From: a virus
Length of the DNA: 43,423 bases
Reading direction: 5' to 3' (one strand)
Virus record (IMG/VR): IMGVR_UViG_3300028573_000004
Coordinates: 1-43,423 of that record
Shown: positions 14,591 to 14,767 of the stretch, one piece after another
How positions within the stretch are numbered: the stretch's first letter is position 1
How the letters are laid out: every line of letters begins with the position of its first letter
Position numbers and translations under genes: made by a program
Notes under the pieces: generated by a model
Seen by the model: only the letters and a program-made list of their open reading frames with translations
What the model was told of the DNA's origin: nothing
Database searches by the model: none

Positions 14591-14767
14591 TGGCGTAGCG
14601 GCGCTGACAGTGAAGCGTTTTAAGCGGGGTGGGGATGCACCCGAGTAATGGCAAGTGCCGCACGGCGGCTTGCAAAGCTTGTCCCGAAAGGCCCAGCGGT
14701 TCGAATCCGTTTTTACACTACTTAAACCCGACGGGGGAGCAGGTGCAATTCCTGCCTATTGCCACCA
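14591..14767 (+). ncRNA. structured RNA with a tRNA-like module nested inside a second cloverleaf-like frame
   Basis: Outer frame: TGGCGTAG (14591-14598) pairs with CTATTGCCA (14756-14764) around one bulged U, followed by an encoded CCA end. A D-arm-like CGCT/AGCG hairpin (14602-14617) and a T-arm-like GCAGG-TGCAATT-CCTGC (14739-14755) are adjacent. GTTTTAAG/CTTAAAC (14617-14624 with 14721-14727) closes the arm where the anticodon loop should be. That arm holds a 90-nt insert with its own acceptor-like GTGGGGA/TTTACAC (14629-14635, 14712-14718), a GG-containing D-loop-like stretch and a canonical T arm AGCGG-TTCGAAT-CCGTT (14695-14711). Neither half is a normal tRNA. Alternatives are degenerate tRNA fragments or a Y RNA with a tRNA-like module. 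Confidence 0.5.

Follow-up and report, generated by a model that had tools for sequence, protein, structure and literature searches.

A tRNA-like frame with exchangeable cargo in an apparently undescribed family of phage RNAs

The DNA analysed here (the window) is a 43-kb stretch, positions 1 to 43,423 of IMG/VR virus record IMGVR_UViG_3300028573_000004. We found that positions 14591-14767 of this window hold an intergenic element whose two ends form a conserved, covarying, tRNA-like frame around a cargo domain that is exchanged between phages, and that this frame occurs independently of Ro. The frame defines a widespread, apparently undescribed phage RNA family with a different cargo in each phage. 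The best explanation, to which sequence comparison leads us to give a probability of about one half, is that the element encodes a free-standing noncoding phage RNA of ~175 nt, which would act as a natural tRNA scaffold protecting an exchangeable cargo.

The element occupies a 210-nt gap: the stop codon before it lies at 14574, and the next start codon, which has a good ribosome-binding site, follows the element's end by 18 nt, at 14785. Its GC content is 58%, against 42% window-wide, and equally GC-rich 177-nt windows make up 0.09%. An earlier sequence-only reading had delimited the element exactly to the base, and its structural description, an outer cloverleaf-like frame whose anticodon position holds a tRNA-like element, was right: the D-like hairpin, the outer T-like arm, the encoded CCA and the pairing of the ends with its single bulged U are all present, as is the canonical TTCGAAT T arm inside the insert (Table 1). 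The acceptor-like pairing that it gave the inner module did not hold up, the best candidates having 5 to 6 pairs out of 7. At its default setting ARAGORN calls no tRNA in the element, and it reports the inner unit only once its threshold is lowered to 85%; Rfam RF00005 matches neither the outer nor the inner unit up to E 10. Of the inner module, the T-arm is firmly established; its acceptor stem is unsupported. The claim that this is not any normal tRNA agrees with these calls, since neither part is called a tRNA at the thresholds of the two tools; a plain tRNA, or a tRNA with an intron, was rejected on the same results.

Table 1. Coordinates of the element's parts and of other features discussed; positions refer to the window unless a contig (L number) is given.
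Feature	Position	Strand	Evidence or remark
5' strand of closing (acceptor-like) helix, TGGCGTAG	14591..14598	+	pairs with 14756-14764, one bulge; R3 alignment; covarying in 47 relatives
2-nt linker CG, equivalent to tRNA positions 8-9	14599..14600	+	CG in 56/58 relatives
D-arm-like hairpin GCGCT-GACAGTGA-AGCGT	14601..14618	+	loop identical across family; loop belonged to search rule
Exchangeable cargo domain, 120 nt, at tRNA anticodon-arm place	14619..14738	+	family cargos mostly unrelated
TTTAAG, possible cargo base helix (anticodon-stem position)	14619..14624	+	sequence; pairable with CTTAAA 14721-14726
CTTAAA, partner of 14619-14624	14721..14726	+	sequence
Inner T-arm hairpin AGCGG-TTCGAAT-CCGTT, within cargo	14695..14711	+	strict T-arm rule
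Outer T-arm-like hairpin GCAGG-TGCAATT-CCTGC	14739..14755	+	strict T-arm rule; abuts 3' closing strand; stem covaries, 3/5 pairs
3' strand of closing helix, CTATTGCCA	14756..14764	+	covariation; R3 alignment
Encoded CCA	14765..14767	+	sequence; directly follows closing strand in 3/58 relatives
True Y RNA	17804-17885	+	R1 52.4 bits, adjoins Ro
Ro (TROVE domain)	17880-19223
True Y RNA with permuted tRNA module	19232-19382	+	R2 136.8 bits, adjoins Ro
True Y RNA	19374-19450	+	R1 55.6 bits, adjoins Ro
Nicotinamide/nicotinate phosphoribosyltransferase	12275-13705	+	NAPRTase, Pfam 1.8e-44; widespread in relatives
HD-domain protein	14944-15654	+	shortly downstream of element; resembles proteins that numerous phage annotations label (p)ppGpp hydrolases
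Complete tRNA gene nested within the anticodon loop of a second well-formed tRNA gene	L118:4995-5145; L147:4972-5124; L256, from 2930 (-)
tRNAs with minihelix insert	L148:4219+; L163 6033-; L232 10697+; L187 3871+ and 2928+; L239 2701-; L111 6371+; L314 6922+

Under a strict T-arm rule (5/5 pairs, G53-C61, loop T[TG]C[AG]ANN), the window contains six hairpins on the + strand and none on the - strand. Real tRNAs account for three of the six, a Y RNA for one and the element for two. Shuffling the element 20,000 times produced one such T-arm in 27 cases and never two; the two-T-arm observation is therefore much better than chance. The outer pairing by itself is non-significant, with 52% of shuffles reaching 7/7 pairs with one bulge. 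The full outer cloverleaf was reached by 9 of 600 shuffles, so that the window beats 98.5% of them on a class-II-like cloverleaf fit, and the single-sequence fold energy is not better than that of shuffles (z +0.63). The outer pairing is certain only through homologs, that is, through a covarying closing helix and a match to a covariance model (R3) from which the window had been left out.

Blastn similarity searches for relatives of the element gave nothing useful. A resemblance to the 3' end of an Aeromonas phage tRNA-Met was rejected, being based solely on the T-arm and the ribosome-binding site, and the nearest related phage (L023, 78% NAPRT) has no element at the syntenic place. A first search pattern, two T-arms separated by 24-42 nt, led to genuine tRNA-in-tRNA genes of other phages. 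Narrowed to GGTTCRANTCC N22-44 GGTGCAATTCC, the search returned L344, L351, L345, L352 and L357, all of which match the window at the 3' hairpin and at a 5'-proximal hairpin, GGCG(..)GACAGTGA(..)CG. Scanning for this 5' hairpin alone, we found at least 119 stretches, ~10 times the estimated chance number; among species genomes, 12 stretches carry it. Sixty relatives could be parsed uniformly as a 9-bp closing helix, CG, GCGTG-GACAGTGA-CACGC, cargo, GCCGG-TGCAATT-CCGGC and the closing strand. The hallmarks of the frame are a D-hairpin with the invariant loop GACAGUGA and a T-hairpin with the core GGUGCAAUUCC, and the window has both. Three frame members (L432:7283-7411, L435:4747-4916 and L438:1780-1906) carry an apparent insert in the T-hairpin loop, between GGTG and AATTCC.

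We assessed covariation in 47 distinct frames, with the window excluded. Of the alignment cells, 96.3% were paired, and double changes occurred in 214 cells compared with 55 in shuffles. All nine closing pairs showed double-sided changes, and sliding the partners abolished the signal. Because these 47 frames had been selected with a pairing cut-off, the count was redone with no pairing selection: when a single register was imposed on the 82 hairpins with a downstream T-hairpin, 79 formed seven or more of the nine closing pairs, and the remaining three are apparently out of register by one or two bases. R3, built from 22 relatives, matched the window at 14591-14764 with 43.2 bits (E 5e-9), the sole significant match, the next reaching 12.5 bits. 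The window's closing helix, 8 pairs plus one bulge, lies inside this match, and the window member scores below most full-length relatives. The sequence-only reading had proposed covariation over homologs as its check and had named two independent decayed tRNAs with no conserved outer helix as the outcome that would count against it; what we found was covariation at 9/9 closing pairs and a conserved outer helix.

The family is large and broadly distributed. Among the matches listed, R3 adds ~37 further full-length or near full-length members, partly second copies in a genome (L424, L366, L426 and L448 have two). Contigs binned as Desulfarculus, Planctomycetota and Chloroflexi contain frames parsed with their closing helix, and the R3 additions include one Gammaproteobacteria contig and one Legionella contig. 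The carriers are tailed-phage contigs, a terminase model matching 20 of 50. When we searched 50,697 isolate phage records by BLAST with the conserved frame pieces, we recovered no true member; the best partial match, found in Salmonella phage 7t3 and confined to the 5' part, falls inside a coding sequence and was rejected. Rfam 15, including GOLLD, ROOL and all its other families, has no match to the frame. Missing from Rfam and with no BLAST match in the isolate collection, the family has been overlooked by annotation. These results add a strongly covarying large RNA family represented by more than 100 metagenomic phage stretches.

The genomic setting of the family bears on whether the element could be a cis-acting leader, riboswitch-like or exerting translational control, of the downstream gene. 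The element's position just ahead of a start codon with a good ribosome-binding site fits such a role, and many relatives also lie upstream of a same-strand gene. The distance to the next ORF, however, varies from 4 to >1000 nt, a search near the element found no terminator, the cargo is too variable to make a ligand pocket likely, and certain genomes hold the two copies noted above. We consider a leader function fairly unlikely. Fifty of 61 elements lie outside any ORF of >100 aa and 11 overlap one; tRNA genes are nearby in 9 of the 61. Two linked systems were also rejected: a retron or RT-linked RNA, with RVT_1 in 1/50 carrier contigs and none in the window, and an RtcB-linked RNA, with RtcB in 0/50. 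The intergenic position, the independence from Ro, RT and RtcB, the variable distance to the next gene and the free exchange of cargo together argue for an independent RNA with a constant tRNA-like chassis.

In 60 members, the cargos range from 31 to 254 nt and are mostly unrelated between phages, with few common types. Those types that do recur in different phages, within the same frame, are found in L368, L379 and L442; in L393 and L424; in L426 and L448; and in L363 and L431, and they are candidate cargo families of their own. The three longest cargos (L358:10263-10571; L478, reverse complement of 5744-6039; and L452) have in common the stretch GGCGCGAACGAGAGGCTGGAAAACGCCATAGGCGTG, with one or two bases varying. 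The L358 contig encodes a reverse transcriptase, and there is perhaps a link to group II introns. Cargos fold slightly better than shuffles on average (mean z -0.53), the window's own having z +0.51. Base helices are weakly enriched across the family (19 seen, 13 +/- 2.8 expected), and at this enrichment we rejected the idea that every cargo has an anticodon-stem-like base helix.

Some cargos do contain tRNA-like parts. A T-arm-like hairpin occurs in 5 of 60, where 0.05 are expected; the unbiased count is 2/57, because L344 and L345 came from the T-arm search and the window was noticed for its T-arm. By eye, anticodon-arm-like hairpins can be seen in the cargos of L428 and L447. These parts are what would be expected if the RNA served to bait tRNA-attacking or tRNA-modifying host enzymes (for example, anticodon nucleases), the cargo showing them tRNA-like features. 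Most cargos, however, have no recognisable tRNA part, and we judge bait as the general role to be distinctly unlikely.

A further possibility is a pair of tRNA genes, decayed or nested, in which one sits inside the other's anticodon loop and which have no function as such. Real tRNA-in-tRNA arrangements exist in L118, L147 and L256, minihelix inserts exist in L148, L187 and L111, and the class-II-like cloverleaf fit given above points the same way. Against this, the covarying frame is kept in ~80 or more phages with cargos that are mostly not tRNAs, and the conserved forms of its outer D-loop and T-loop are foreign to ordinary tRNAs. We therefore think that there is only a slim chance that this interpretation is correct. 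One frame member, L465:3055-3250, lies in a tRNA cluster and has as its cargo a tRNA with an anticodon-loop insert of its own (RF00005, 36.2 bits). Separately, we observed phage tRNAs with anticodon-loop inserts of 44-99 nt that form an acceptor and T-arm minihelix (Table 1). In several of these the inner stem takes in the last anticodon base, and the inserts of L187 and L111 have a common hairpin with the hexaloop AGTAAA. In the open-access literature, nested tRNAs appear only as a tRNA within a protein gene, and tRNA-in-tRNA was not found.

The sequence-only reading had noted that this phage encodes Ro, which is correct, and had raised the possibility that the element is a phage Y RNA bound by it. 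We gathered Ro relatives from IMG/VR and isolate phages. In many Ro phages (L002-L022, L025), one to several Y RNAs adjoin Ro, with or without a permuted tRNA module in which the T-arm stands ahead of the D-arm. Two alignments of these Y RNAs showed strong covariation and yielded the models R1 and R2, which identify three true Y RNAs beside Ro in the window. None of the three reaches the Rfam gathering score, and an ARAGORN 'tRNA-Thr' at 19233-19306 is a miscalled part of the permuted one. In the region 14400-14900, the R2 matches were confined to the two T-arms, at 10.0 and 6.6 bits, and R1 reached at best 4.2 bits, on the opposite strand. Neither the Ro-binding motif, GGUG(A/U)AG ... UACUUC ... 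CUUGUUCC, nor the permuted tRNA module (T-arm, acceptor, D-arm GTAGCTCAG) was found at the element, where the order of T-arm and D-arm is unpermuted. A TROVE gene was absent from all 49 other carrier contigs tested, and R3 found no convincing copy in the Ro-encoding relatives, nothing being better than E 0.08. The presence of the Ro gene 3.1 kb downstream and the occurrence of tRNA modules in Y RNAs of Ro phages favour the Y RNA suggestion; set against the results above, they leave it a nearly negligible likelihood. We conclude that the element is not a Ro-bound Y RNA of this kind.

Compared with a tRNA, the frame retains the overall layout: a 2-nt linker, a T-hairpin abutting the closing helix and an A preceding the T stem (57/60). 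It departs from tRNA at conserved positions, having C in place of U8 and G55 in the T-loop in nearly all members, and a D-loop, GACAGUGA, without GG. The closing helix, at 8-9 bp (9 in the family), is longer than the 7-bp acceptor, and the encoded CCA is not a family feature. With GG missing from the D-loop and G55 present in the T-loop, the two loops cannot make the tRNA elbow contacts in their standard form, and tRNA enzymes may fail to recognise the frame.

For the scaffold interpretation, we propose that the RNA ends would fold into the tRNA-like frame, in which closing helix, 2-nt linker, D-arm-like hairpin and a coaxial T-arm-like hairpin come together, and that the anticodon-arm position would present the phage-specific cargo domain. 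The host tRNA-processing machinery may read this frame, with RNase P acting at the 5' end and trimming or CCA addition at the 3' end, and the frame may shield the RNA ends from exonucleases; processing by tRNA enzymes together with end protection would be the simplest use of such a chassis. The cargo's job could be base-pairing, the binding of a host factor or service as bait for tRNA-handling host enzymes. We thus infer, from comparative sequence analysis, that the RNA is transcribed, processed and stable and that its cargo has a function. On a broader view, which we put at slightly less than even odds, many phage lineages would share a tRNA-like chassis in which unrelated RNAs or whole tRNAs are swapped at the anticodon position, and tRNA maturation enzymes would release and protect regulatory RNAs or decoys. 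The combination of a frame with exchangeable cargo opens two questions to direct test: whether the tRNA maturation pathway yields stable phage regulatory RNAs, and which roles the cargos play.

Several known RNAs resemble the element in part. In the open-access journal literature, the frame family is not described; it appears to be new as an RNA family, though an earlier description may exist. GOLLD and ROOL are functionally uncharacterised phage RNAs that frequently lie close to tRNA islands, and GOLLD, often >800 nt long, has a linker that may hold tRNAs (PMC12286853). The frame shares with them the phage and tRNA-island setting and differs in its lack of an Rfam match and in GOLLD's frequently much greater length. 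YrlA-type Y RNAs are likewise modular, combining a tRNA-like part with a helix made by both ends, but their Ro-binding motif and permuted T-then-D module are missing in the element. The T4 stable RNAs rnaC and rnaD (species 1 and 2) are likewise small phage RNAs, encoded within a tRNA cluster, and rnaC has a terminal T-arm (CCGGGTTCGAATCCCGG) adjoining its 3' strand; they lack the GACAGUGA hairpin, however, and R3 has no match in the T4 tRNA cluster (L484).

The global layout of the element equals that of tmRNA (ssrA), in which both ends form an acceptor and T-arm domain and a long insert takes the anticodon-arm place, and one could imagine a tmRNA-like RNA that acts on ribosomes with the cargo as its mRNA-like part. 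The frame differs from tmRNA in having a real 5-bp D stem with the loop GACAGUGA, a UGCAAUU T-loop and cargos that are mostly unrelated, the shortest being 31 nt. Moreover, ARAGORN -m calls no tmRNA in the window element, and the Rfam tmRNA models match no further than the inner T-arm, with 8 bits. A tmRNA-like role is thus very unlikely. That tRNA-like RNAs may carry inserts is a long-standing general idea, and the engineered tRNA scaffold is built to stabilise a cargo RNA by placing it where a tRNA has its anticodon. That scaffold is man-made, whereas the layout of the frame, if our proposal is right, is natural, and the frame would be the natural counterpart of the laboratory tRNA scaffold.
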